Of a DNA stretch of 64,000 bases, positions 14,417 to 60,911 are shown one piece after another. A program made the position numbers and the translations under genes. The DNA is from Sphaerolaimus hirsutus. Lineage: Eukaryota > Nematoda > Chromadorea > Monhysterida > Sphaerolaimidae. Every line of letters begins with the position of its first letter. Within the stretch, counting starts at the first letter, position 1. The stretch spans positions 29,461,785-29,525,784 of the forward strand of contig OZ038452.1 of the NCBI GenBank assembly GCA_964036195.1, written 5' to 3'. The notes below the pieces were generated by a model. It did no database searches. It saw only the letters and a program-made list of their open reading frames with translations, and was not told where the DNA came from.

Positions 14417-14639
14417 GGGGGCAATCCCAAGCCCTGTAAAGTGTAAAGTAAAGTGTCAAATGTAAAGTCAATGCAAAGTAAAGTGTCAATCAAAACAAAA
14501 AAGAAAAGATTTTATTACTGAACTTTGCATGACAATTGACACTTTACTTTGCATTTGACTTTACATTTGACATTTGACCTTGCATTTGACTTTACATTTG
14601 ACACTTTACTTCACACTTTACAGGGCTTGGGATTGCCAC
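14417..14639. mobile_element. Introner-like MITE family 1 copy
   Basis: Ends GGGGGCAATCCC and GGGATTGCCAC around inverted AAGCCCTGTAAAGTGTAAAG. Lies directly upstream (minus strand) of the acceptor of the candidate exon 14128-14394, with the GTGGC end at the donor side. Flanking duplication not clear. Confidence 0.75.
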
Positions 14640-24544: not shown

Positions 24545-25765
24545 AACGATGGCAAACCCTCCAAAAAAAAGTATTTAAATTTTTAAGTGTTTTTTCCAAA
24601 ATGACTTTTCGAATTTTCGAATTTTTCCTGTAATTAATTTTCAAATTTCGAATTTAATTTTCGAATTTTCGAATCTTTTTTGGCAATTTTCAAATTTTTT
24701 TGGCCATTTTTCAAATAATTTTCGAATTTTTTTGGAAAAATATTGAATCTGAAGCTTTAAACAAAGAATTTGGACTGTTTTGGAAGTGGCTATACTCGGC
24801 AGACATGCTAATCTACAAATAGATATGATTTATATCTTTGGCTGGCAGACAGCCAACTGAAAACTTGTGAACTGATTCACCACTGCACTCCATTTCATCC
24901 TGACTCTGAACCAGTTCAGTCAGCCGTAAGTTCACTGCGGACTGCGGTTATGACGTCATGATGGAGTGTTACCACCAGAAAAATGTAGGGTGTAATTTCG
25001 CCCGAGTATAGCACACTGGGCATACTCAGTGCATACAGTGCTAACTGCACGAAATATGGGTACTTCTCAAACCAATACTCAAAACCACTCTTATATCCAG
25101 CGACATTACACCTACAATGAAATCCACCATAACCCATCTGAATAAAAGAACAAACAAAAAAATGTTCATCATATTTAGCAAAGCAATTTGATTAATGTTG
25201 AAATTTTTTTATGTTTGTTCTTTTATTCAGATGGGATATGGTAGGTTACATTATAAAGTGTAATGTCGCTGGAGTATACCTTTGATCAAATCTATTCTAC
25301 TTATAAATATGTGCAGTTCCTATGTGCAATCCCAGACACCTGAAAATGCTCTGTGAAATGTCAAATGTTATGCGAAGTGTCTAAAGTCATGGAAATGCTG
25401 TGGAAAATGGCAAATATGTTTGCCATTTTTCCAGGGCATTTTCATAACTTTTGACACTTTGCATGACATTTCACATTTTACAGGGTAGTTTACATTTCAA
25501 CGTTTTTGGACCTTTTTTCTGTTTTGTTTCGCTTTTTCATAAGCACCGCGTATCAATTTTCGTTGTATTTAGTACCTTGAACTTAAGAGTGCCTTGAATT
25601 GCCTGAAAAATTCGAAAAGTATTTTCGAATTTTCGAATTTTTTGAAAAATAAATCGATTTTTAAGTGTTTTTTCTAGGGGTGAAATAAAAATTCGAAAAT
25701 TCGAAAATGTTTTCGAATTTTCGAATCTTTTTTTGCCATCGTTACTAACCACCAACAATTTAGTC
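24545..25765. mobile_element. Element with CGAATTTTCGAATTTT ends
   Basis: Starts near GATGGCAAACC, ends near TTTGCCATCGTTAC, with CGAATTTTCG rows at both ends. Nested inside are a CAGCGACATTACACC foldback (25090-25275) and a TGTCAAATG-type palindrome (25320-25485). Confidence 0.5.
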
Positions 25766-27648: not shown

Positions 27649-27840
27649 GTGGCAATCCCAAGCCCTGTAAAGTGTAAAGTAAAGTGTCAAATGTAAAGTC
27701 AAATGCAAAGTAAAGTGTTAATTGTCATGCAAAGTTCAGTAATAAAATATTTTCTTTTTTGTTTTAATTGACACTTGACTTTGCATTTGACTTTACATTT
27801 GACACTTTACTTTACACTTTACAGGGCTTGGGACTGCCCC
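27649..27840. mobile_element. Introner-like MITE family 1 copy
   Basis: Ends GTGGCAATCCCAAGCCCTG and CAGGGCTTGGGACTGCCCC, target duplication CTGG (27646-27649, 27841-27844). Interior is a near-perfect palindrome of GTAAAGTGTAAAG/TGTCAAATGTAAAG units. Confidence 0.85.
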
Positions 27841-28455: not shown

Positions 28456-29201
28456 CCCGCAACCCCCCCCCCATTTTCAGCATGAGCGATATCCAACCCC
28501 CGGAGGTCAAAATCCAATATACCCCTGGCTTCAAGCATTATCAATGGTTAGTCAGTGTAACAAGGTTAATGAAGTGTTAATAAATACTAGGTAGGGCTGT
28601 TTAGAAAATGATGTCACACGTTTTTCGCGCAATAACTGGCGATTATGTAGATAATATTTTTTAATTACATTTTTTCTTCAAATTTTTCAAAATTTCAAAC
28701 GAAAAAATTTCTTTCAAAATCAACCCGAATTGACATCATAGACTTCCGAACAGCCAATGGTACTTATCGAGGCGGTGGTTCAAACAGGACAGATAAATGA
28801 ATCACGATCATACTTTATGTAAACCCAGAAAAGCCGTTACTCTTGGGGCCACTTCCAGTTGTTGTCCGGCCTCGTTGTAAAATGTAAAATGATATATGAT
28901 GTATCAAAGGTCATGCGAAATGTCATGAAAATTGTAAAATGATCAGTAAATAATAATAATCTTGAACATGTTGAACACTACTTTGAACGACATTTTTTTA
29001 CACTTTACAACGTCTGGTTGGGTCTGTACCGGCGCGCATGTAAACTCGGTGCACATGTAGGCTCGGTGCCCACCTAGACCCGAGATGCGCACGTTGTTCA
29101 ACCGTACATGCGCGCCGGCACAGACCAATACGTTTTTGCAACACTGGTACAATGTGATCCAAGATTCCTGGGCACCGGGTCTACACGGGCAGCGCACAGA
29201 G

Positions 29202-29429
29202 GGGGTGCACTGATACGCACATCTGCCCGTTACGCACATTTGCCCGTTTTTTTTCACTTGACACTTTTTCAAGTGATTTTCAGATATGAGTGACGTGAAA
29301 AAAGTTCACTAACGTCATTGCGCAGCGTTTTTCACTGCACTCATATCTGAAAATCACTTAAAAAAGTGTCAAGTGAAAAAAACGGGCAAATGTGCGTAAC
29401 GGGCAGATGTGCGTATCAGGCCTGCCCCC
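29202..29429. mobile_element. hAT-like MITE, ends GGGGTGCACTGATACGCAC
   Basis: 8-bp duplication GCACAGAG (29194-29201, 29430-29437). Same family as 5087-5467. Confidence 0.87.
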
Positions 29430-30400: not shown

Positions 30401-33400
30401 TCACTCGGACTTCAGTTCACTGTCTCTTGTCTCATCCACCTGGGGGCAGTCCCAAACCCTGTAAAATGCCCTGTAAAATGTCAAATGCCATGCAAAGTGT
30501 CAACAGTCATGTAAAATTCACGATAAAATGGCAAACGTACGTTTTGCACTTTACCGGGCATTTTCCACAACTTTTGACACTTTGCGTGACACTTGACACT
30601 TTACAGGGCATTTTACAAGGTCTGGGACTGGCACCTGAGCGGCGCGTAATCGCGATCGGTCCGACAGGGCGCGCCGCAGCACCATGTGGAACAGCGACGG
30701 CCACACTATGAAGAACACCACGTGCGGAAGAAAGTGCACCGCGCCCAGGGCCTGCGTGTGTTTTAAACGTGTTTTAAACTGGGGTTGTTTTAAAATACGT
30801 TTTAGAGCCCTGCGTAAAAATACTAGCGAAAGGCTTGAAAAATGCCTGCCTAGTGCCTACCACAGTTGTTATAGTGATAATTTATTTAGTGGTGAAAGTA
30901 GGGATACAAACGTTTTTTCAACGAACCCGTCTAAAAAACCCTTTTTTTAAATAAATAAAACCGTTTTCATTGGAATTCCATGGCCCCGCTCAATGAATAT
31001 CTGGCAGGCGTCTAGCAGAACGTTACAGACTGTGTAAAACGAAGGGCCCTCAAAATGGCATGCTAACTTTTTGATAATATCTTTTTAAATCCTTATAAAA
31101 CGATTTTAAAAAACCAACCGGGAACCACCGTTCCTTCTTAATCAAGCCAAACGAAAGGAATGCCACAGACGTTGCCCAAAGTATAGTTATTTTTCCAATA
31201 ATCCACTTAACGTAGAATCCCGGTCCAGAATCGGTCATTTCTCGCAACTTTGGAATTCTGTCCATGCAATACATTAGCTGCAAAAAAATTACCGCTTTAA
31301 GTGGCAATTAGCGTTCGAAAATGGATTTTTCTCAGAAAACATAATTAAATGCAATCTCAGATACTCACTCGGAAAAAAATAAAATTAAATTAAATCTCTT
31401 TAAAAGTCTTTATAGATAAATACAACATAATAAAATTAAATGTCTCTAAATGGAAAAACCTGGAGAAAGTAAAAAATGTAAGGTTTTTTATACTTTTTAA
31501 AATCTAAATAACCCGATATTTTAAAAAAACTAATGCCAAAACAGGATCAATCTATAGTCCAGTTACTTTACACCCTGCACGCGTGGTTCCCGCTGGAACC
31601 GTGCCAACTACTTTTCTACCCATGCGATTTTAATAAAAAGTTGAAAAAAGTCATTTCTGTTATAGCGCTATATGTTCACTTATTCACAACAATTAATTTT
31701 TTCATCTTTTATACAAAAATCGCATGCTTTATCATCATTGGCACGCTTCCAACGTGAGACATAAATGAGTGCGAGGGCAGAGTATCATGTCCGCCGAGTA
31801 TATCATCAAACCACACACCTCCTTCTCGGCATTGACAACGGCGAACTCATAAAAGAAGAGCACAAAGTAGCCCAAGTGATATCCGTGCCACATGGCCAGG
31901 AAGCCGAGCACGGTCACGTGGCTCAGGTATTTGTTGCCCATCCAGCGTAGTCGCTTGAAGACGTACCTGAAATGGACGGGGCAGGCCTGATACGCACATC
32001 TGCCCGTTACGCACATTTGCCCGTTACGCACATTTGCCCGTTTTTTCACTTGACACTTTTTCAATTGATTTTCAGATATGAGTGAAGTGAAAAAAGTTCA
32101 CTAATGTCATTGCGCAGCGTTTTTCACTTCACTCATATCTGAAAATTACTTGGAAAAGTGTCAAGTGAAAAAACGGGCAAATGTGCGTAACAGGCAGATG
32201 TGCGTATCAGTGCACCCCCAAATTGACAACTGATTTTTTTGACGAAATGTGTGGTTTGACTTTGAAGTGACCAGACGTAAATATCTGTAGGGTTATTAAA
32301 AATAGATTTTTTATGCTGCTCAATTTCTTTAAAAATAAAATCGGGTTTTTTATCGCCGGAGTCAAATTGGGTCGTATTTTTCGTCGAAATAAACTGAGGG
32401 GATATAGATGAAACTAAAAGCTGAATAACTAGATACACAGTGTAAATGCTGTCATACATAGGGTTCAAACGGGATTGACTTTTCGGGATCGGGATTGGCC
32501 GGGATTGGGGTCACGGGATCGGGATTGGCATTTTTTCGGGATCGGGATTGGGGTCTTGGGATAGAGATTTTGGCCAATGTTCTGGCATCCACAGTTGTTC
32601 ATAAATAGGGTTCAAACGGGATACCGATCCGATCCCGGATCCCGTTTGAACCCTAGTCATACCTTCTGTAGTCAAATAAATAGCAGAGCTTTAAAAAACC
32701 ATGAAGCTTCATTTTTTCAATTGAAACGGCAATTTTTACAATACCTAGTGCACAACCACCAAAAACTTTGGTAGCTTAAAAAAAAAAATAAAATTTAAAA
32801 AACGTGTGTAAACGGACCGAAGGGCCCACTGGTTGGTGTTGTAGTTGAAGCCGCGCAGGTACTGGCCACAGCCGTAGCCCAGCTCGTATCTGCGCGCCAA
32901 TGGTGCCAAATATACGATTATTTAAAAAGGAATGTTTTTGGTACCAGTTGTATAGTTGCTGATAATATCACTGGCAGGCTTAAGGGAAGGGGTATATAAA
33001 TACATGTATATACCGTATTACCTCGAAATACCCCCATGGGGGTTTATTATTTCTCCAGCAAAATTTGAGGGGGGGTTAATTCGAGGGGGGGGTTAATTCG
33101 AGGGGGGGTTTTATTATTTCGTCAGAAATTTTCGTAGAGATCGTAGTAAATAGTAGGCATTTGCATACCCAAAACAGGTAATAAATGTGTCCATACAGGA
33201 TATATTTGGACTTAAAAATGTAGATAGCTACACAAACTAGTTTATGTGTAGCTGCAATGCAAATTGACAGTAATATACATCATGTACATTGCATACATGA
33301 CGTATTTATTATGTACATGACGTACATCATTCCGAAGGGGGGGGGGGTTTTTCGAGGGGGGGGGTTTATTATTTCCCCAGCCCATTTTGAGGGGGGGTTA

Positions 33401-34685
33401 ATTCGAGGGGGGGGGTTAATTCAAGGGGGGGGATAATTCGAGGTAATACGGTACTTTAAAACGTATTTTTGTGTTGCCATACGCAAAGTATGTGTCGACT
33501 AATTTTCTTGCGTTTTTTTTGAAGTATTTACACGTGCATGTAAATACTGTATTTCAGACAACACTTGTTCTGGAACAATAGGGGAAATGGAATAAATAGC
33601 TCATAAAATTAATTTTCCAGAAATCCGTGTACCGGGAAATTTATCGGTAACTAGCCCCCACAACTCCTTCAAATGTCAAAACTCCGGTTAAACCAACTCA
33701 GTAATATGGAAATCCCGGACGCCGTTCCATTTTTCCTTGCCAGTTTTTTCATCGATCCCGTTGTAAGCCAGACCCATAAGAATGCTCGCGCCTTCCTGCG
33801 ATTTCGGTAGACGGTGTAAGGTTGAGGGTCACCACAAGGGGTTAGGGTGGCAAAGTTTACCGTACCGCATTTTTGATAAATTTACCGTACCGTATAGTGT
33901 ACCGCAAAGCTAGGGATCAATCAAACGGGATTGACTTTTCGGGATCGGATTCGTTTTTTAATTTTATTTCGGGATTCGGAATCGGGATTGGGGTTTTGTG
34001 GGATCGCGATCGGGACTGCAAAATCCCGAAATATTTCGGGATTCGGGATCGGGATCCCGTTTGAACCTTACGCAAAGCCGTACCGTTTGCCACCCTAGAT
34101 ATTTATAAAATGTCAGCAGATGGTTATAAATTTGGGCCCGCTCCCAATATCACCCAAAATACCCAGGACAAAAAAAAACCAACAACAAACAAACATTGAT
34201 CAGCCAAGCGGCAAAGTAACGACAAATGATGATGCGGAACCACATGAAACACCACCAGTAACGCGTCAACATCGAAGGGTTAGACTGCGTAGGAAAATGA
34301 TACTAAAAACGAAATTTTGGACCTTAATTGTGGCCCGCACAGTAGTTGACACATTTGTGTCAACTGGTCTGTGTCTACTCAGATTTTGGCTTACGTGTCA
34401 CTGAGCGATCTCTAAATGCACATGCGGCAATGTTGAATAATAAATACATATTATGGAGAGTGCACTTGGAGATCGCTCTATGACACGTGCAGCCGAAATC
34501 TGAGTTGACACAGACCAGTTGACACACATGTGTCAACTAGTGTGCGGGCCGTCAATTATTCAAATGTCAAACCAACCACAAACTGATCAGAGTACATGAG
34601 TTCCGATGGATAATACTCGGTTCCGATCAGGTGAACAATGAGGTAAACGAAGCCGATTGCCAGACGAGTGCACGCTTCAAGCACA
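30401..34685 (-). CDS. LPCAT3: Lysophospholipid acyltransferase, MBOAT family (LPCAT3/MBOAT5-like), C-terminal 283 residues, 5' part missing
   Basis: Minus-strand exons, in gene order: 34685-34577, 34302-34195, 33795-33698, 32889-32818, 31966-31819, 31277-31119, 30751-30635, 30439-30401 (TGA). Every junction is in phase. The product re-acylates lysophospholipids in the ER membrane. Seen in order: RLAIGFVYLIVHLIG, YWWCFMWFRIIICRYFAAWL, EGASILMGLAYNG, GFNYNTNQWALR (Asn of the MBOAT active site), YVFKRLRWMGNK, LGFLAMWHGYHLGYF (catalytic His), a long membrane exon (31277-31119) and FLPHVVFFIVWPSLFHM. Order and spacing match human LPCAT3 from its middle to its C-terminus. The first exon shown begins with one base, so at least one exon precedes it; I did not find it up to 42 kb and part may be in the N gap. 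The last intron (30440-30634) is a transposon copy. Closest alternative is another MBOAT paralogue (MBOAT1/2). Confidence 0.9.
30440..30634 (-). mobile_element. Introner: family 1 MITE that is exactly the last intron of the acyltransferase gene
   Basis: On the gene strand: CTCAG|GTGCCAGTCCCAGACC ... TTTGGGACTGCCCCCAG|GTGGATG. The target CAGGT is present on both sides. The left copy supplies CAG|GT as donor; the right copy supplies the AG acceptor and the first two bases of the next exon. The intron is 195 bp and removing it restores a frame ending VDETRDSELKSE then TGA. Interior is the palindromic GTAAAATGCCCTGTAAAATG of the family. Confidence 0.85.
31378..31562. other. TTAAATCTC-type AT-rich tract in an intron
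   Basis: A run of AAATTAAATCTCTTT with inverted partners, resembling the AGAAAATCTC interior of the 466-1861 element. No clear termini. Confidence 0.35.
31562..31803. mobile_element. MITE ending CCGCCGAGTATA
   Basis: Reverse-oriented relative of 15313-15580: TTACACCCTGCACGCGTGGT at left, ATTGGCACGCTTCCAACGTG, then GTCCGCCGAGTATA at right. Lies 15 bp from the exon end at 31819. Confidence 0.55.
31978..32219. mobile_element. hAT-like MITE beside an acyltransferase splice acceptor
   Basis: Ends GGGGCAGGCCTGATACGCAC and GTGCGTATCAGTGCACCCCC; flanks AAATGGAC and AAATTGAC (one mismatch). It ends 11 bp from the exon starting at 31966, so it has replaced the normal upstream sequence of that acceptor. 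Confidence 0.82.
32459..32655. mobile_element. hAT-like MITE TAGGGTTCAAACGGGA
   Basis: Flanks GTCATACA and GTCATACC (one mismatch). A second, tiny pair of the same ends (TAGGGTTCAAACGGGAT at 32606) abuts the right end. Confidence 0.8.
33011..33453. mobile_element. MITE TACCGTATTACCTCGAAATA
   Basis: Ends TACCGTATTACCTCGAAATA and TCGAGGTAATACGGTA, with rows of GGGGGGTTAATTCGAG inside. Relatives at 40562-40832, 47844-47963, 49193-49621, 61690-61979. Confidence 0.75.
33911..34070. mobile_element. hAT-like MITE TAGGGATCAATCAAACGGGA
   Basis: 8-bp duplication CGCAAAGC (33903-33910, 34071-34078). Nested inside another element with ends TTAGGGTGGCAAAG and TTTGCCACCCTAG (about 33842-34094). Confidence 0.82.
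34334..34556. mobile_element. Foldback MITE GGCCCGCACAGTAGTTGACA
   Basis: Arms of about 95 bp (GGCCCGCACAGTAGTTGACA ... GTGTCAACTAGTGTGCGGGCC) separated by a short AT-rich loop near 34430. In an acyltransferase intron. Confidence 0.7.
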
Positions 34686-35204
34686 CTGAATTTTGCATTT
34701 TGCAGTAATAGAAAAGAAAGTAACCGGTTAGCTCGAAAATTATATAGCGATGGCTCAAACATTTCTAAACACAAGATATGTTATGTGTACAAGAACCACT
34801 TTTCCGGGCCGGGACCATGAAATTATTTTCCAGAAACCCTGAACCTCCCCCCATTCGGCCATCTATAAATCGACCTTGAAATTTTTAAAAATTTTACCCA
34901 AAATTTCCGTTCAAAATGGCTAATTTTCCTACAATTTTTGCCCATTTTCACACTGTTATGAAGTATAGTAAATAAAGACATCACTGAAATCAATTTTTTT
35001 GGAAATACAAACGCCTGCCGCATCGCTATAAAAATTACACATTGCACAAAACTAACGAATCCCTGGGCGCATTTGTTTTTGGGTCATTCATTTCCCCGTT
35101 GACCAATGAGCGCAGTCTCACCAGTGGATACTGAGAGATATTTTACTGGTGTTTGATCCAAAAAAAAATGTTTTTTTTTCTTCGAAACTTTTACCAGATA
35201 CACA

Positions 35205-41162: not shown

Positions 41163-41792
41163 TACCGTATTTCTTCTAATAGAAGGGCGCCCTTCTATTT
41201 TTTTCATCAAATTTTTACCCGCCCTTCTATTGGAGACGCCCTTCTATTGGAGACCGCCCTTCTATTTTTTTTCGCCATTCTTTCAGCCTATTTTCTTCAC
41301 GTTCTCCCGAGGTTTTTCATGGTGTTACGTCACAGAAAGTTTATAGAACGACGATTCATGGGGGCAATCCCAAGCCCTGTAAAGTGTAAAGTAAAGTGTC
41401 AAATGTTAAGTAAAATGCAAAGTCAAGTGTCAATCAAAAAAAAAAAGAAAAGATTTTATTATTGAACTTTGCATGACAATTGACACTTTACTTTGCATTT
41501 GACTTTACATTTGACACTTTACTTTACACTTTACAGGGCTTGGGATTGGCACATGGAGTTCATTCAACATTTCATGTTAAAATAGCATCAGATCAATTGA
41601 CCAAAGCCACTAAACTACAGCGTCTGCCAATATTTTTTTTATGCATTTGGCACAGTTCCAGCACTTTCTGTACCTTCTATTGGAGACCGCCCTTCTATTT
41701 ATTTCGTGGCACAAATAAAGTCGAAAAAGTGTACCTTCTATTGGAGACGCCCTTCTATTGGAGACCCGCCCTTCTATTAGAAGAAATACAGT
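41163..41792. mobile_element. TACCGTATTTCTTCTAATAG element carrying a nested family 1 MITE
   Basis: Ends TACCGTATTTCTTCTAATAG and CTATTAGAAGAAATACAGTA. At 41361-41551 it is interrupted by a family 1 introner-like copy with target duplication CATG (41357-41360, 41552-41555), showing that family 1 is a mobile unit of its own. Confidence 0.8.
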
Positions 41793-42369
41793 AATACGGT
41801 ATTTATGTTTCGTGCTGGGATGGGAGCGTGCCAATGATAATTAAAGCATGCGACTTCTATGAAAAGATGAAAACATTATTCCCGTTATAAGTATAGTCAA
41901 GACAGAAGAAGTATAGTCAATCAGTTTTCTCACATACATGGTTACTTTTTGATATTTTTCAGGCACCTAGGAAACTATTCTCTGCTTTCATACTCAATTA
42001 TACAATTTGACCGTTGTAGCACAAATTTTGAGTTTTTTTGACATTTTTTAAATATGCTGATTGATTACCTCAAAATTCTTACCTAGTTTAAATCAATATT
42101 AAATGAATTGATATTTAAACAATATAACTAAGTAGGTAAATATGAATACTTCCCTTTTAAATTCTCCATTTAAATCTATCATGATAAATATTACCGCACC
42201 ACAAACAGATGAAATTGGTAAATACTAAATACAGATATCTAAAAGTTGAAACATGATACTTTAAAAACCACCCACACATTAAGCTATGCATCAACCACTC
42301 CATACAGTAAAATAACAGTCTAATAATAAGCTCTAAACTTTGCAGAGAATATATTCACCACATTCTAAA

Positions 42370-45300
42370 ATGGAGTGCACCGAGAATTCTACCGTAATTT
42401 TGCCAACAATTTTGAAATGGGACAATGTATTTTCCCAGGATCACATTTCTGGCAGTCATCCAGATACTTTTAATAAAACTGAGGTGGCATTTTTAACGTC
42501 TCACATAGCGGTCACGATTTTTTCATTGACTACGAATGCTTTTTTACTACTGGTTAGTGAAAAGCTTGAGTTTTTTATGTTTAACGTGAAATTTAAATTG
42601 GTAAATTTATAATATTTACCAATTTAAATGGGAGGATCCAATGAAACATGTAAGCGCACGAAACATTTTGTATCATGACACACGCACACGTGCCCATGAA
42701 ACACGTTGTATCATTACACACGCCCATGCGCTCATGAAACACGCCGGTTTGCCCATGAAACACGCACGCGCGCGGTGTCATAGCAATGCATGAGTGCGCA
42801 ATCTGTGTACTGATAATTTGTTAAGTAGTGTCGATAATTACTCTGATTGGCAAGGCGTGAATGCGCGTCTGGCAGCATGGATAATTTGAATGTGCCCAAT
42901 ATTGATTACCGTGAGCGTGTGCATAGTGTAAATCTGTTCATACGTCAGTTGAAAAAATCTCATAAATTCATTTTTCTTGGATAATGGCCGACTTTGGCCC
43001 GTGTGTTAGTGAGGATGAACATTTTTTATACAGATTATCTATTGTACACATTTTTGGTTGGATATTTGCTGTGTTAATGTTGATTGAATCACTCCAATGA
43101 ATTAAATGCTTATTTTGACACAATTAACACATCTAACAATGTATACTGTGCACATTTAGCTCAAACGCAATTTAGCACGCATGTAAATATCACAGGCATC
43201 AAACGCAATTTAGCACGCATGTAAGTAGGTAATATAGAGCGCTGAAAACAGTTGATTATACTTACAAAAAAATAATAAAATGTGATGCGCGCATATACAT
43301 TGCTATGACACCGCGCGCGTGCGTGTTTCATGGGCAAACCGGCGTGTTTCATGAGCGCATGGGCGTGTGTAATGATACAACGTGTTTCATGGGCGCGTGT
43401 GCGTGTGTCATGATACAAAATGTTTCGTGCGCTTACATGTTTCGAGTAGCACACTCATTTAAATTGTGATTTTACCAATATTTGTGACCCTGGCAAATGG
43501 CGAAACAAATGAAATTATATTTTGCGTTTGAGTTCAAATGTGAGTTTACTGGAATGAGTTTTCCTTACTCTCCGTCAACAGCAGTTGACGAACATCTGAT
43601 TTCAGTAAACTCAAATGACATTCAATTCAAAGTTGATTTACCGTATTTGCTTGAATAGTCCTCCCCCTTGAATAATTCCCCCCCCCGAATAATCCCCCCT
43701 GTAAAACGAGTGAGGAAAAAATAATTACCCCCTTAAGAAATTTGATCTATTTGTTGTGCCTAAATTTAACAAAAATAGCACGTTATTGTGGTAATGATGC
43801 ACATTTCGTGAAATGACTTGATCGAAACATGCTCAAAAGTTTTGACGAAATAATAATTCCCCCCACGAATAATTCCCTCCAAAAGTCTGAGGAAATAATA
43901 ATGCCCCAAGGGGATTATTCAAGTAAATACGTTATGTGTATAAATCATTAGTCAACGATATTTCAGCGCCATTATGCTGCAGCCTCAATATTGTTGGGTT
44001 TTTTTTAATTTAAAAAAAAACATCCAGCTGACGATGAAAAGAAAAACGAGAAAAAACAACAGCAGCAACACTGGCAATCAAAGATCTAATCAAGCGCAAG
44101 TGAGAAATCAATCGACTTCGATTATGTTCAATTACAAAGATTACAAAGAGAAAACATCGCTGAAATGTCAAAAGAGAAGTGGCAGTGCAAAAAAGTTTAC
44201 AAAAAAGAAAAATATTTTGAGCAGTAATTCCGTATTTATTGTGAAAAATATTATCATTGTGAATGCCATGGTTATTGTGGTATTTTTACCATGGTATACA
44301 ATGTTTTTGACACTGTGCCAAAAAATAAACGGTGTAGTTGGTTCGAATTGTTTACGGAGGAACCTTATATTCAGTCTGTGAGTTTCAGTTTTTGGACTAT
44401 GTTTTGTGTGTGTAAAACGTATTTTTGACACCTGTAGTTTTATAGGTATGCCACTTGCCAAGCTAAATTTTAATGTTCATTCTTAATTTTAAAAAATGAA
44501 TCTGAATCTAGAAAGACAAGTTGAAAATTTTGAACAATCACAAAAATAGATACGGTAAAATAGGTAGTTATCTTTTGGTTGACTTATTGAGGGGGAACAA
44601 TTCAATGCGATATTCATCAATAATCAATCATCAATTTATCAAGGGAAGGATTATTTTTACATCAGAATTCACAGTCACGTTTAATTGTATCAATTCATAA
44701 GAAAATGTTGTTGTGCAAAAATGTTGTTTTGTGGTTGGGGATTTGAATCTTTTTCCTTGCACTTCCATCCAACTAGGTACCATATTTAACACATAAAGAA
44801 CTCTTAGGGACAATTGTTTCATGCAAACACATTACATCTTTGATCCAAGGAAATACAGTAAATCTTCAGCCATCACTTAATAACCCCAAACCTAAAACAC
44901 CCCCCCCCCCCCAATTTCCAGTCTCAACACTCTGCTGACAACCACATCAATTTCCACCCAAGGATGTGTTTTATGCGCCAGCAGTTTGCACAGAATGAGG
45001 GCCATTGCAAATCCCTTGCAAAGTTACGGTGGAAAAGGCGGAGCCAATAATGATGCGAGGATTATGGTAACATTGTCTTGGGGGGTTGGATGTGCGTGGG
45101 GGAGCATTGTGGTCAGTTTGGGGTTAGGTGATTTTTGTTGTGGTGAGGGCATCAAAAAGTGGGTTTGTGAAGTGTGAACAGCCAAACCACAGGTGTTAAA
45201 TACACTAAAATGCATATGCTTTTGATGCCATCTTAAGAAGGAATCATAGTGCCATTCAAAAATATACATAGCAAAAATGGGTGTTTTGATGTGCGGTGAA

Positions 45301-48300
45301 GTGTCTTCATGCTGACATTTCCAGAAGTTTCACCAAGAATGCTAGCGCTCCCACACTCATCACAAAAATTTGCTTGAAGGCACATATTAAATATGGCATT
45401 TGGCAAGGAGATAAATGTTGGTGATAGCACCACATATGAAGCTAGGTGAAGCGTGTCGAAGACACTTCACTGAAAATTTCATGGTGCTGGTGGAAGCAAA
45501 GCATGTGGAAGAACACAACTTCACACGCATCCAGCATGCTTCTGACACATCACACCCCATTTTTTGTGGAACATGGCTGGATGTGCTGGATGTGTGCATA
45601 TAAGCCACACTTCTACATTCTTCCACATGCTTCACGAGATTTTTTGTTGACTGTCTTCCAGATGCTTCACAAGATCTTTGGTGGAGTTTCTTCCTGATTT
45701 TTGGTGAAGTGTCTTCCAGATTTTTGGTGAAGTGTCTTCCAGATGCATAATGTGACTTTTGATGAAGTGTCTTTCACACACTTCACATACCCATTTTTCC
45801 CTGTTGGCATTATAGCTTTGTCAATACAGCCTCCTGACCTCACACATATTTTATGAACATTGTCCCACAGAAAAAAACATGGTAAAATTCCAGACATTTC
45901 TACATTTTATGCATGACACGCCTATGATAGCAGAACCAGTATCTCCTGGGTTTGGCAGGAATGAATCTCGTCATGATAATCAGACATTATTATCAAATGA
46001 ATCAATTCCAGCTTTGTCACCAGATGTTTTGATTGTTGCAAATTCTTTTATCTCACTGATGGCAATGTATATTTTGCCAATCATTCTGAAAGTGGTCTGT
46101 GCAGCGATAAGTTTGACCAAACTGAGAACAGTTGGTGAAGGTTGGTATTTAAAGGGTTGGGGTTTCATTTTTATTGGCATGGTTCCAACCACATATTTGG
46201 GTAATTACTAATTCTTGCAGTCATCATGTTGTGAACTTTTGAGCTATTTTGATTTGATTTATCAATAGCCTTGACATGTGATATGTGTGGAAATTGTGTA
46301 GCTTATCATACTAAATAACATGAAAAGTACCTAAGTGTATAGTTCACTGCCTAGTTTTTCAGCACATTGTAATTTTCAACCAAGATAAATATTTATTATA
46401 ATAATAAGTACTCGAAAAACTTAACTGCCACTACACATGTGCAGTTATTTAGGCATATATAATGTTCGCAGTGTGCCAATGTTAAGTAATATGCAACAAC
46501 TGTACCCTAATGAGTAACCTGTTGTTTTTCAAAGATAGACATAAACTATGGGATGGAATCACATGATGTCCTGAAATTTGAAGGAAAAAAATCAGGCCAA
46601 AAATTCCACCTCCTCACCCCCACAAACCCCCCAACCCCTCCCCCAACCCCCCAGAACCCCTGATGCCAAACCTGGTAAATTCTGGCCTGATGGCCACATT
46701 CAAAATGCTGGCACCCGTGGCAATGGCATCAGCATCCACCCTGCATTACAGCCAGAAGAAGATAGTGCCAGCAATGAGGCGACTGAGTGGCATGTCAAAT
46801 GTTTGTGAATCTGAAACTGATGGAAATACTGTGCTGCCTGGTGCCAATTGTGCAATTGGACAAGTAAAAGTACAAGTTGTAGGTGGTGAGGGAATCAACA
46901 GGTTTTTGTAAAAGTCTGGTTGAATGTTAGGTAGTCAATTCACAAATGTTCAATCAAGTTGAATATGAGTAAATTGACAAGCGAGTTAATAGACGTCACA
47001 AGTCACAAGTAACCACAAGCTAGTCATTTTTCAAACACCAGGGGCCAGTCCCAAGCCCTGTAAAGTGTAAAGTAAAGTGTCCAATGTAAAGTCAAATGCA
47101 AAGTCAAGTGTCAATCAAAACAAAAAAGATAAGATTTTATTACTGAACTTTGCATGACAATTGACACTTTACTTTGCATTTGACTTTACATTTGACACTT
47201 TACTTTACACTTTACAGGGCTTGGGATTGGCACCAGGCATGGTTAATTTTTCTTTGAGTGATACATTGCATTAAAACACACCGTATGCAAAACAATTGGC
47301 AATGTTCCAGCATTCAGACTCTATTTGTTATGGTGAAACATTTTCTTAGAATATTTTCCTCCATTTGCACTTCTGACCTACCACTTGCAATCTAACTTCA
47401 CACTTGTGAATTCACTTGACATTTCAACCTGTATTTTTACCCATTCTCTTGTGGAATTGGCCCCAGGTGTGGTAGGCGGCAGTGAGATTAGAGTTCAGGC
47501 TAAAATGTTGCCTATTGTGGTAGATCCTGGGGTTGATGTCAATGTTACTGACAATGACATCTTTGATGCAACTTCTGGGGAACAGGTTGGGTTCTGATGT
47601 TTTGATGTTTTTGTTATCATTTTGTAGTTTTAGGAGGCATGGTGCATTTTTTGTGCAGATGTGTCAATTGTTTTTGTGTTGTATTTAAGGTGACAATCAA
47701 AAAATACTGCTCAAAATCAAGTAGCAGAAAGTAAAAATGAGAATTCTTAAGATACAGTTTTGAGAATCGAACTGCTACTGGAACTGGACCAGTGGAAAAT
47801 TTAAAAATAAATGTGAACGTACTTAAATTTGAAAATAAATACTTACCGTATTACCTCGAAATACCCCCAGGGGGTTTATTATTTCCTCAGCCGACTTTTA
47901 GGGGGGGGGGTATTTCGAGGGGGGGGGTTAATTCAAGGGGGGATTATTCGAGGTAATACGGTAAGCACAAATACAATCTCTTACGTGGCAGTGATTCTCT
48001 CGTCACAGGCAAAGTAAAATTTAGAAATCAATATCACCAATTTTCAGGTAACCCTTTCCCTGCTGCCACCAAAACCATACTTAAGTGCCAATAATACTGA
48101 CAAAAACCTGCTGTCACCGTTAAAAAAGTATGGCAGTACTGCTTCACTCAACTTTATTGGAGTGTCCACATCTGGTGCCACTCCCAGACCCTGTGAAATG
48201 CCCTGTAAAATGTTGAATGTCATGCAAAGTGTGTAAAGTCATGTAAACTTCCCTGCAAAATGCCAATCAACATGTAAAAAAAACTAATATGAAATTTGAC

Positions 48301-51300
48301 ATTTTACATGACATTTGACAGGGCATTTTACAGGGTCTGGGACTGCCCCCTGGCCTCAGCAAAGTTCTACACAAGAGGGACTCTGCAACTTCATTGCAAC
48401 TTGGCATTGATCCAGATCAAAGAAGAAGTTCATTTGGCAGGAGAATGTCCAGTTTGAGACATGCTTGCAGCTTTGGAAATTTGAGCCATGTTTTGGCAAC
48501 TCACAGGTTGTCTCAGGCATCTACATTCAGGTGGGATTGGATTTCCATATGCAAATAAGGATAGTATTGTTTTGTTGGTTGTTGTAAATAATAAATATGG
48601 CAATATACTGCATATACTTGAATAATTCCCCCACCTTGAAGAATTCCCCCCTCTTAGACTAGTGAGGAAAAATACCCCCCCCCCCTCGAATAATCCCCCC
48701 TTTAGGCATATGATAAAGCTTTTTCATCCAATTTGAACAAAAATTGCTCGTTTTTAGTAAATAATACATATTTCACGAAATCAGTTAAAAGAAACATGCT
48801 TAAAATTTTTGACGAAATAATAATTCCTCCATTGAACAATTTCCCTCTCGAATAGCCCCCTCAAAAAAGTCTGATGACAAAATAGTTTCCTTATTCGTAT
48901 TATATACAGTAGGTAAATAGTTGTGCTGTAATTTCACATATATAGGTCTCTAACCAAAAATAACCAAAAATGATTGTGCTACCTGATGCATCATGAAAAT
49001 TTGCATGGAGCATCGCTTTTCATGTCCCAAGCTCATGTCAGAATTTTGGAAGGTTGTGAATAGCACTGGAAAAACGGGGTGATTTTGAGAAAATATGATC
49101 AGATATAATCTCAGAAAATCTCTCAAAAACAAAATTTAATAAAAAAAAATTATTAAAAAATTGAATTAATGTAGAAAATCCTGGCAAATATATACCGTAT
49201 TTCCTTGAGTTACCCCCCCCCCTTAATCAACCCCCCCCTCGAAATACCCCAGGTGTTTTCGAGCTGGGAAAAAAATAAGCCCCCCTCGAAATACCCCCGT
49301 CTGGAATGATGTACACCATGTATGCAATGTAAATACATGATGTATTTATTTATTGGTGCTAGTTTCCATCGCATATACACATAGGTATATATCAATTTAT
49401 GTACAGATGTACGTCTGTATGCTCCGATATGTCCAATTACTTACATTTATTACCGGTTTTGTGTATGAAAAGCGTATTCTTTACTAAGAATTTCACGAAA
49501 ATTTCTGCCGAAATAATAAACCCCCCCCTCGAACAAGCCCCCCCCCCCCCTCGAAATACCCTCCTCAAAATTTCCACTCTGAAAAATAAACCCCCTGGGG
49601 GTATTTCGAGGAAATACGGTATTTTAAAAAATATTTTCCATACAGACTAGATTCCTCGCTGCACGAACGCACCAAAAAAGCACGCATTCGATTGGCAACT
49701 TTATGTTTGGGAAGCATACTTTGCTTCACATTATGCCGCATGCCAATGTCGCTGGCATTTCTTGGCCAAATTTTAGCATGGTGCCAAAATGGAAGCGACT
49801 TTCATTTGGATATAATGGGATATAAGTTGGCATGGTGCCAAGGGAAGCATTTCAGAGATAATTTTGAATGGTTCTTGGACAGTGGAGGACTGAATAGAAG
49901 GTTTGCAAATGTGATCTTTGATAAGAGTGATTAGATACTATGCTCATGTAGTTACTTATGTTTTACGTTGGCAGTGAGCCAACAATTACTTATGTAACAA
50001 CACCATAGCGCTTGTGGCCTGGCGCTTGACACCATTTCGTTCTGGAACCGTTTTGCTCTAGCGCCATTGGCACCTGGCCCTTGACGCCAACATTTTGGCG
50101 CTTGTTACATTAACTTCTGCGTGCAATTATTGTAAACTGTGTAATGGAAAATTTTAAATTGTTTTAAATTATAAACTAAAATTTTGTAGAATATTGAAAA
50201 TCATTTCCCTCTAAATACTCAGACTAATCCCCATATGTTTGGTGCTGCACACTGGTTTGGTTGCAATAATTCAAGTCAATTTTGCTTGCAATGTGGGAAG
50301 AATAAATTTCGCTCCAGCCCTGAGAAATGTGAGAAGAGTCATCAGGAGAACATTCTTTTGTGGAAAAAGGAACAGAAGCATGAAAAATAGGAGATTTAAT
50401 ACACAGAGCACCTTAGTGGTGGGTTCCTGTGCATTTGTTCATTTAACATACAGCTTGGAATACAACTTGTTCATTTGACATCCACTTAATAAAACAGATG
50501 TGAGTCACAAGCATAGTAATTATATGAATACAGTTTATTGAAATTGGATTGAACCACCAAACATATGACAATGTGCTAACATTTTATATGTTAATTTGTC
50601 AGCTTGACCGCATCTTGAAAGTTCAGCATTTTGTTGTTGCTGTTCAACCATTCGCACCGCATGCGCATCCAACCAAACAGAATGGGACATGTTCCCACAC
50701 ATATGGAACTGTCCTTCGCGCTCCGACATGAAATCTTGCGATATGAAATTATGCATTTATCACAACAAATGGGGGACATTTATCTACCCCCATACCAAAT
50801 TTGAGCAGTTTTCATTCAAGATTGACGTGTTGGGAGCCAATTGAAACCGTGCGCCTGACGTGCGCCACCCTGTACTTTACTCTCAATTTTACTCTTTAAT
50901 CCTCTACTTTACTCGCTACTCTTAACTTAGCTACTTGCCGAACCGGCACCAGCTTCTTATATGTAAAAAAGACACTGTAGACATAAGGCAAATTTTGACA
51001 TTTTTTTGCACACAGACACCACAAATTAATGTCAGAACGGCAACAGTTAGACGCAAATGCAAGAAAGAGGATTCAACTTTATCAAACACCATTATAAACC
51101 TGGAGCAAATCAATCAGGACTACAATGATCGGATGGAACAAGGTTTTAACCAGGTGTTAATTCCACAAGTGCAGAAGTGACAGGTAAAATGGCAAGTGTT
51201 GAGTAAAAAAATAGGTGTAGGTCAATAAAGAACAAGTAAACTTTTAAGTGGCTGACAGACTAGTATTACAGACTAGTAAGTCTGCTTTACACTTGACTTA

Positions 51301-55566: not shown

Positions 55567-55657
55567 GTGGCAGTACCGCATCCTGTAAAATGTAAAAAAG
55601 TGTCATACGACATGGCATACGACACTTTACTGTACACTTCAGGGTGCGGGACTGCCC
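55567..55657. mobile_element. Short family 1 MITE copy
   Basis: 91 bp, ends GTGGCAGTACCGCATCCTG and GTGCGGGACTGCCCC, flanks CCTG. Mirror copy at 60912-61003. Confidence 0.75.
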
Positions 55658-55669
55658 CCTGCTAGGTTT

Positions 55670-59343: not shown

Positions 59344-59480
59344 ACGCCCGGGCGTCAAATCATTGGATTGGGGGCTTTATGCAACGCAACCTCGTTTCAG
59401 CGATCAATAGTTCAATACTATAAAATAAAATCAATTCAATCGCAGCCGAAAATCCACAAACAGATCAAAATAAAATAAAA

Positions 59481-60673
59481 ATGGCTAAAAAGTTACATTT
59501 CGCCCTAATAACTCTACTTCTAATCCTGCACAATACCAACGCCCTACCAGAGGCCAAACCGGATGAATTTGACATGGAAAATTTGGAGGACATTTTGCAA
59601 AATTTGGATGAAATTGACAAAAAAACGTTCAGTGAGGAAGATAATGATGATGGCAGGGAGCCAGCTGTGGCCAGGGGAAATTGGGCCAGGGATTGGCCAG
59701 GTTTGTTCCACCGGGGGCAGTCCCGCACCCTGTCTGTGACTTGTCAAGTAAAGTGTCAAATGTCATGTAAAATTTGGATTGAAATTTAAAAATGGGTTTT
59801 TATTGAACTTTTGTGCGAGTTTGACAAATTTGTCAAAACTCAAAAACTCTATAAAAAAATTCAAATTTTCGTTTGTTATCCCCATCCCAATTCAAAGCTT
59901 GCTGAGGAGCTGAGGAACGACGTTCAAATCAAAAAGAGTTTAATCATGTTGCTAATAAAGTTGCAGTGTTGAAAAAATATTGCGGTATGCGCAGCGCAAT
60001 GTACAAAGCTGGTATGAAGTAAAATTTATATGTGTGCAATTATGCGTAGTGTTACTCGTCAGCAGGCGATAAATTGGGATGGGAACCAGTTTTCATTTTG
60101 AAACCATGAAAACTAGTCTGTGTGGCGCCATTACTGTAAATCCTCGAATAAATCGCCAGGAGGGTTATATTTTTCAACAAACGTTTTTGACTGGGGGGGT
60201 TATTCGAGGAGGGGGGTCATTCGAGATAATTCGAAGATGAATGTATTGTATCAATGCGATTAAATTACTCTATTTACTCAAATATTTCCCCCCCTTGAAT
60301 AATTCCCCGCTGTTAGACGGATGAGGGAAAATATAATACCCCTAGAAAAATTCCACCCTTTTAATAATCCTTCCTCGAACAGCCCCCTCCAAAAGTCTGA
60401 CGAAAAGATAATTTCCTGAACTATGGGAATAATTCCTGGGAAATATTCCTGTAAATACGGTAGTTGAATGCGACATGCAATTTCTATTGAGAATACTTCA
60501 TAGAAGCTCGCAAACCAATTTCATAAATCCAACAAACATGGTAAAATTGACCCACACCTACAGAAGCGCCGGACGCGTGCTACCACAAAGTGTGCGCCTG
60601 GGGCCAGGAATGCCACACTGACCAAAATGGTGCCGCCTACTGCGCCTGCATGGACAGGTGCCCGCCCATCGTG
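59481..60673 (+). CDS. SPARC: SPARC/osteonectin-like secreted matrix protein, first two exons (gene runs into gap)
   Basis: Exon 1 (59481-59700) starts at an ATG preceded by an A-rich stretch and encodes a signal peptide (MAKKLHFALITLLLIL..., cleavage near residue 21) and an acidic segment (LPEAKPDEFDMENLEDIL, EEDNDDGRE). It ends in phase 1 at a GT donor. Exon 2 (60564-60673) follows a CAG acceptor in the matching phase and encodes a follistatin-like cysteine module, C-x4-C-x5-C-x9-C-x-C-x3-C (residues 79-106), ending before a GTACGT donor. Signal peptide, short acidic domain and FOLN/Kazal start in this order are the N-terminal half of SPARC, a collagen- and calcium-binding extracellular protein. 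The Kazal rest and the EF-hand EC domain must lie in the 200-N gap or beyond 64 kb. Another follistatin-domain secreted protein is possible. Confidence 0.82.
59713..59800. mobile_element. Left end of a family 1 MITE in SPARC intron 1
   Basis: GGGGGCAGTCCCGCACCCTG followed by TCAAGTAAAGTGTCAAATG; no right end found. Starts 13 bp after the exon donor, reverse orientation. Confidence 0.6.
60132..60465. mobile_element. TCGAATAA/CCCCCC elements in SPARC intron 1
   Basis: Two neighbouring partial members: GTAAATCCTCGAATAAATCG with GGGGGGTTATTCGAG (60135-60235) and TATTTCCCCCCCTTGAATAA to TGTAAATACGGTA (60283-60463). Confidence 0.5.
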
Positions 60674-60711
60674 GTACGTGTGGTTCCGGGCTGGTTTTGT
60701 GGTAGGGCCAC

Positions 60712-60911
60712 NNNNNNNNNNNNNNNNNNNNNNNNNNNNNNNNNNNNNNNNNNNNNNNNNNNNNNNNNNNNNNNNNNNNNNNNNNNNNNNNNNNNNNNNN
60801 NNNNNNNNNNNNNNNNNNNNNNNNNNNNNNNNNNNNNNNNNNNNNNNNNNNNNNNNNNNNNNNNNNNNNNNNNNNNNNNNNNNNNNNNNNNNNNNNNNNN
60901 NNNNNNNNNNN
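60712..60911. other. Assembly gap, 200 N
   Basis: Exactly 200 N. It begins 38 bp after SPARC exon 2 and ends at the edge of the right duplication arm, so the join there is unproven. Confidence 0.95.

Follow-up and report, generated by a model that had tools for sequence, protein, structure and literature searches.

In the 64-kb stretch of DNA analysed here (the window), the minus strand carries a gene whose predicted product is an LPCAT3/MBOAT5-type acyltransferase. The predicted last intron of this gene (30440-30634) consists of a palindromic miniature inverted-repeat transposable element (MITE) and one copy of its target. With high confidence, it is interpreted as one insertion of a family of introners, i.e. 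of a non-autonomous NuwaI-like MITE that inserts at and duplicates the trinucleotide CWG. The exon model of the gene begins at 35057-35130 (earlier exons lie outside it) and continues with the coding exons 34577-34685, 34195-34284, 33694-33795, 32818-32882, 31819-31966 and 31119-31277. The exon at 31819-31966 holds the MBOAT core (PF03062, E 2.9e-10 for the open reading frame (ORF) 31738-32097), the only Pfam match above the curated cut-off among 20 ORF entries of the window. The next exon (30635-30751, ALGAVHFLPHVV...RAAQ), also supported by comparison with named proteins, ends directly at the element. Beyond the element follows the last coding exon (30401-30439), with 12 codons (VDETRDSELKSE), a stop and a lysine at position -3. 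When these nine exons are joined and the element is removed exactly, a single frame of 301 codons is obtained (stop counted), in which the only stop is the terminal one and no base is gained or lost. The first-pass annotation of this DNA had described the sequence in the same way, including the closure of the frame 12 codons after the joint, and this description holds.

The joined protein (276 residues) aligns with LPCAT3 structures (E 2.9e-38) and shares 35-44% identity with named nematode proteins. A maximum-likelihood tree with 36 rows places it as the sister of 11 nematode sequences (supports 99/97 and 98/93), all of them chromadorean, Plectus included. Judged from this single gene, the host is most probably a nematode outside Chromadorea, and less probably a close nematode relative such as a hairworm. 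For the C-terminus 121 relatives were fetched; 18 were set aside because their ends were incomplete or could not be compared. Among the 103 that were counted, 90 possess a lysine at -3 and 69 a dilysine pattern; such a dilysine C-terminus is an ending of the endoplasmic reticulum retrieval type. The spliced tail of the LPCAT3-like protein ends in LKSE and retains the lysine at -3. Random tails starting at CAG sites of the window have this lysine in only 61 of 997 cases. Because the spliced tail carries it and random tails rarely do, the 12 codons past the element represent, with high probability, the ancestral C-terminus. Taken alone, the evidence of the tail speaks for an insertion into coding sequence, not for splicing.

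Read on the minus strand across 30634-30440, the window shows GCTCAG|GTGCCAGTCCC...GGGACTGCCCCCAG|GTGGATGAG. The MITE itself (GTGCCAGTCCCA...TGGGACTGCCCC, 192 bp) occupies 30443-30634, and its first two bases would form the 5' splice site. The right copy of the target-site duplication (TSD), CAG at 30440-30442, would provide the 3' splice site, while the left copy (CAG, 30635-30637) is the last codon (Gln) of the upstream exon. The palindrome spans the whole element with arms of 97 nt that are 81% complementary, in agreement with the inverted ends and palindromic interior reported at first. For the RNA of 30425-30650 one long hairpin is predicted (-131 kcal/mol versus -60 +/- 4.4 in shuffles, z = -16). 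Two internal AGs (TTTTACAG) are located in the right arm, at distances of 21 and 33 nt from its outer end.

It had been proposed that a target of five bases, CAGGT, was duplicated, with one duplicate making the donor and the other the acceptor. The direct repeat of this copy is in fact CAGGTG. However, the flanks of the copies in the window and in the genome show a duplication of three bases (CWG), and the 5-bp TSD was rejected. The extra GT(G) arises because the first bases of the element, GTG, match the GTG of the downstream exon by chance, and the fourth base of the repeat, a G, is unassignable. Since the element supplies GT and the family duplicates 3 bp, the donor GT is part of the element and the left CAG part of the exon, and the right CAG would act as acceptor.

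The host genome (348 Mb) was searched with the 195-bp intron, ending in CAG, as query. From 4615 first-look candidates the 40 nearest to a copy lying in an exon were scored, so that the share of copies in exons is not a genome-wide rate. The 90 matches obtained correspond to 40 loci, and the 39 further copies are about 88-91% identical. Identical triplets flank the element at 27 of the 40 loci (22 CAG/CAG, 5 CTG/CTG). The other 13 comprise six with CTG, CCG or CGG on the left and CAG on the right, one CAG/CTG, three in which the CAG is shifted by one base, and three that are broken or unclear. Divergence from the consensus has a median of 4.3% (range 1.6-8.6%) over 37 copies, L024, L025 and L034 being excluded for their broken or unclear right ends; the window copy is the most diverged (8.6%). 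Judged by eye, the consensus arms differ at base 2 (T versus G) and at base 4. One end thereby offers GT, and the other reads CCCC before the triplet. Element length is nearly constant, mostly 192 bp, both here and in a sister subfamily described below, in keeping with a MITE as a short, non-coding element with terminal inverted repeats (TIRs) and many copies. Patterns of the MITE ends gave no match in viral contigs and none in genome contigs, in collections that may omit this or near genomes.

By eye, the 40 loci include three pairs that resemble gene duplicates (L016/L026, L021/L037 and L024/L025). L016 and L026 (both on C2) appear to be a duplicated PAN-domain gene with the same insertion. 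The exon-side triplet is CAG (Gln) in one and CCG (Pro) in the other, and the CAG on the intron side is common to both.

For the surrounding coding sequence, the element and one triplet were removed in silico, and the frame was read through the joint. Of 73 sense frames, 30 were chosen by eye, from 29 of the 39 loci (outside this set are L003, L006, L014, L018, L021, L024, L025, L026, L028 and L034). It was found that a Pfam domain crosses the joint at 11 of the 29 scanned loci, and at nine of these the match lies above the Pfam cut-off: 7tm_1, UCH, RRM_1, Glyco_transf_92 (twice), Med8, Ribo_biogen_C, FLYWCH and Sterol-sensing/Patched. Tmemb_cc2 (1.5e-4) and VWD (0.007) cross the joint below the cut-off. 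L016 (PAN_1) and L030 (TPR) were matched as well; their joints are not clearly spanned and they were not counted. In the antisense control none of 33 frames matched Pfam (of 36 printed, at loci then without a sense match). The difference from the sense frames (0/33 versus 11/30, p 9e-5) has to be read with the sense frames having been picked by eye.

Alignment to solved structures runs over the joint without a gap at four of the five loci tried. This is the case for MED8 (query 32-83, joint 60), a ubiquitin hydrolase (deubiquitinase; query 13-54, joint 30), an RRM protein (query 27-90, joint 60) and an NPC1-like protein (query 47-89, joint 60). The nearest structure for the ubiquitin hydrolase locus is presumably a yeast-type SAGA enzyme. 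In the fifth, a G-protein-coupled receptor (GPCR), the alignment spans the joint with small gaps. The scan of ten frames from incidental copies with Pfam gave one match and none for the other nine. The match concerns a 151-bp relative (L014:1016-1166) with AAG as right triplet, which interrupts a cuticlin C-terminal domain (E 5e-39). In the RRM gene of L023 (C13:24704100-24708400) a second introner-like sequence was seen about 30 codons past the first; the piece that was scanned ended before it.

A 192-bp element that interrupts conserved domains of unrelated genes, and whose removal restores gapless homology, bears the signature of an introner family. This supports the introner reading given from one copy in the first-pass annotation, which had also suggested a genome search for the ends and a count of copies coinciding with introns. 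The genome search with the 195-bp intron yielded the 40 loci above, at most of which the element extends exactly to the joint; from the sequences, we infer that the copies are introns.

The sister subfamily (type copy 27649-27840) served as control. From 2304 candidates 40 were scored, and 39 of them (L041-L079) were compared, the window's own copy being omitted. All scored sister copies are at least 98% identical, and the subfamily is the younger one. Median flank GC content is 0.42 for the sister and 0.56 for the introner copies, and both flanks are at least half G+C at 2 of 39 sister versus 23 of 40 introner loci (p 4e-7). A sense frame is open for 60 nt on each side at 37/40 introner copies and at 15/39 sister copies (p 3e-7). 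The sister subfamily lies mostly in AT-rich, stop-filled DNA. Surroundings that resemble exons therefore characterise the sampled introner copies rather than every MITE with such ends.

Triplets are identical at 26 of the 39 sister copies, 24 of these being CAG or CTG. Mismatched triplets of the introner copies are mostly of one kind: six have a left non-CAG and a right CAG, versus one with left CAG and right CTG (8 versus 1 with two incidental copies added, p 0.039). Mismatches of the same kind occur in the sister subfamily (CTG/CAG six, CAG/CTG three). Selection for an AG acceptor was rejected as explanation, as the mostly non-genic sister subfamily has like mismatches and a similar share of right CAG. 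An avoidance of right CAG by the sister subfamily (0/7 in a small sample) was also rejected, with 22/39 in the larger sample. Unequal triplets were observed in 13 of the 39 young sister copies, nine differing only in the middle base (CTG versus CAG). Point mutation, with a divergence of about 2%, would seem insufficient to account for so many.

With regard to the splice sites, the pairing of the element donor with U1 (-6.8 kcal/mol) is the second best among the eight donors of the LPCAT3-like gene and falls within the best 2.7% of 4000 sampled GTs. This good pairing is largely due to the exonic CAG. The motif GTAAGT occurs at none of the seven native donors (35057, 34577, 34195, 33694, 32818, 31819 and 31119).

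Several observations weigh against splicing of the element as an exact intron. The element donor lacks the G at +5 that is present in six of the seven native donors. The internal TTTTACAG AGs could serve in place of the terminal one, and the message would then be 19 or 31 nt longer and out of frame. The right triplet is CTG in six of the 40 copies, where exact removal would need a TG acceptor. Three of these right-CTG copies interrupt domains of the types MED8, RRM and FLYWCH, from which the closest in-frame GT-AG pairs would take away 10, 12 and 4 residues, respectively. Right CAG is not significantly commoner in introner copies (28/40) than in sister copies (22/39, p 0.25). At the 40 loci, open antisense frames are about as frequent as open sense frames (32 versus 37 for 60 nt, 13 versus 12 for 150 nt), so that an open frame alone reflects GC-rich surroundings. 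Finally, the spliced tail has one lysine and lacks the second lysine of the dilysine found in 69/103 relatives.

Among the alternatives, it is improbable that the MITE stays unspliced in the last exon and that the protein ends within it, extended by 27 codons. Without splicing, the frame does stay open over this length (ORF 30551-30856), as the earlier description had it, and the tail of the enzyme varies in length (15-62 residues past a reference tryptophan in the 103 relatives). The retained tail (VENAR), however, is without the lysine at -3 of 90/103 relatives. Moreover, the sibling copies break folded domains, e.g. in MED8 and a ubiquitin hydrolase, and a retained element would destroy such proteins.

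Removal through one of the internal TTTTACAG acceptors instead of the CAG of the target duplication is about as improbable. Two such sites are present in the right arm, and the first AG past a branch point is often used. Yet their positions at -21 and -33 are no worse than those of AGs upstream of native acceptors: an AG 19-22 nt upstream also precedes three of the seven native acceptors of the LPCAT3-like gene. Neither 19 nor 31 nt is divisible by three, and the resulting tails (by eye) also lack the lysine at -3. In the MED8 copy none of the five in-frame, stop-free GT-AG pairs uses the internal AGs, and all of them remove at least 10 residues of the downstream exon. Of 18 such pairs for the RRM copy, the six closest ones likewise leave the internal AGs unused.

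Slightly lower still is the probability that the coding surroundings are real and many copies are harmful alleles or pseudogenes rather than spliced introns. The right-CTG copies without an AG at the joint and the duplicated-gene look of the three pairs would fit this. On the other hand, the copies lie at a median of 4.3% from the consensus, and the frames on both sides are nevertheless open and homologous at the 11 of 29 scanned loci. Least probable of all is an older intron into which the MITE was inserted and whose flanks were later lost: other introns of the LPCAT3-like gene do hold MITE-like palindromes that are flanked by intron sequence at either end (31978-32219, 34332-34550), but not one base of an older intron is left on either side of the element, here or at copies with the triplets exactly at the joint, and unrelated genes would all have to show this coincidence.

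For the preferred interpretation, an insertion that became an intron, the following course can be proposed. The element would be moved by a NuwaI/PHIS transposase supplied elsewhere, for this superfamily a DDE enzyme with a Myb/SANT partner, and a NuwaI-type insertion would duplicate the CWG target. With a CAG target in the sense direction, the left CAG would become the end of the exon, the element would bring the GT, and the right CAG would become the end of the intron. The spliceosome would then remove the element together with one CAG, giving back the original reading frame. The hairpin that joins both ends may perhaps help this removal. As the CWG target preference is itself half a splice site (CAG), a transposon of this kind would be ready-made to become an intron.

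A wider proposal is more doubtful. In a single nematode-like animal, introns may have been made by a NuwaI-like MITE family in their hundreds or more, and would be removed with relaxed 3' splice sites. The right-CTG copies in MED8, RRM and FLYWCH would then leave as GT-TG introns, and the near-perfect hairpin together with the fixed ends might matter more for recognition than the terminal AG. The transposon-born introns of Fritillaria are largely non-canonical, whereas most of the copies sampled here offer GT-AG and a minority GT-TG.

Introners derived from DNA transposons were reportedly described by Huff et al. in 2016. Gozashti et al. 2022 report introners in 175 of 3325 genomes; only two of the taxonomic groups concerned belong to the animals and land plants (PMC9860276). 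The DNA-transposon introners described there resemble the present family as short, non-autonomous elements with TIR and TSD, in which the whole element is the intron. One splice site comes from the element and the other from the TSD, the length of the mRNA is unchanged, and the copies lie in unrelated genes with GC-rich target surroundings. They differ from the present case in its nematode-like host and in its TSD, the trinucleotide CWG (PMC9860276). A likeness also exists to the larvacean tunicates (Fritillaria), where introns of an animal are likewise ascribed to introner transposons, with splice sites that are weak (PMC13326754). A literature search over titles, beginnings of abstracts and passages of PMC9169325, with preprints and most subscription papers outside its scope, found no nematode introner family. 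For introners together with Harbinger, only a fungal study was found, by its listing.

The NuwaI group belongs to the PHIS (PIF/Harbinger-related) transposons and, in the sections consulted, is described with the TSD 5'-CWG-3' and a terminal GGG (PMC4482050). The hosts listed there by Han et al. 2015 are bony fish, a beetle, a crustacean, a mollusc and an anthozoan. A nematode is not among them, and these sections do not mention introns. With the GGG of the NuwaI TIR start compared, one end of the present element reads GGGG and the other GTGC or GTGG. The CWG duplication fits the NuwaI group, and the GGGG-type end may do so as well. The present element differs in being non-autonomous and wholly palindromic, with its other end beginning GTG (PMC4482050). 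The family is therefore filed here as a new introner family of NuwaI-like origin, in an animal group for which no reported introner family was found in the search above. The origin of new introns is an old question with few clear animal cases. Here, one and the same genome allows a comparison of the element, its target duplication, the restored coding sequence and a sister subfamily that is mostly non-genic. The birth of introns, the choice of splice sites and the selection acting on new introns thereby become directly testable in an animal.

Within the window, seven pairs of matching ends were found, the copy at 30440-30634 included, in line with the at least six other copies noticed at first. 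Identical 3-bp flanks are present in six of the seven pairs (CAG once, CTG four times, CAT once; the chance of at least six is about 3e-10 with independent bases). Among the other six, five are long copies, 75-82% identical to 30443-30634 where aligned, and four of these belong to the sister subfamily. The latter comprise 27649-27840 (plus strand, CTG/CTG, outside recognised exons), 41361-41552 (minus, CAT/CAT), 47042-47233 (minus, CTG/CTG) and the longer 14418-14639 (222 bp, minus), whose CAT/CTG flanks are an unmatched duplication. Closer to the introner subfamily is 48175-48349 (plus, CTG/CTG, flank GC 0.40 and 0.45). The sixth is a short relative of 92 bp with both ends (55567-55658, plus, CTG/CTG). 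A decayed relative of the introner subfamily (25326-25494, about 80% identical, strand not assigned) showed no matching triplets. The copy at 30440-30634 is the sole whole intron in a modelled gene among the seven.

At 59424-60700, beside a 200-N gap (60712-60911), a signal peptide and a cysteine-rich stretch resemble SPARC/follistatin by eye; Pfam gave no match. Fragments on the plus strand at 42337-49931 resemble, by eye, a rhodopsin-type GPCR gene, with a 7tm_1 match for 44896-45174 that stays below the curated cut-off (E 0.048). Introns of this GPCR-like gene would contain the copies at 47042 and 48175. A second palindromic family, with the ends GGGGCAGGCCTGATACGC and GGGGGTGCACTGATACGC, is found at 31978-32219 and 29201-29428, the first of which stops 11 bp short of the splice acceptor at 31966 in the LPCAT3-like gene. 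A further MITE-like palindrome (GGCCCGCACAGTAG..., 34332-34550) lies within the LPCAT3 intron 34576-34285.
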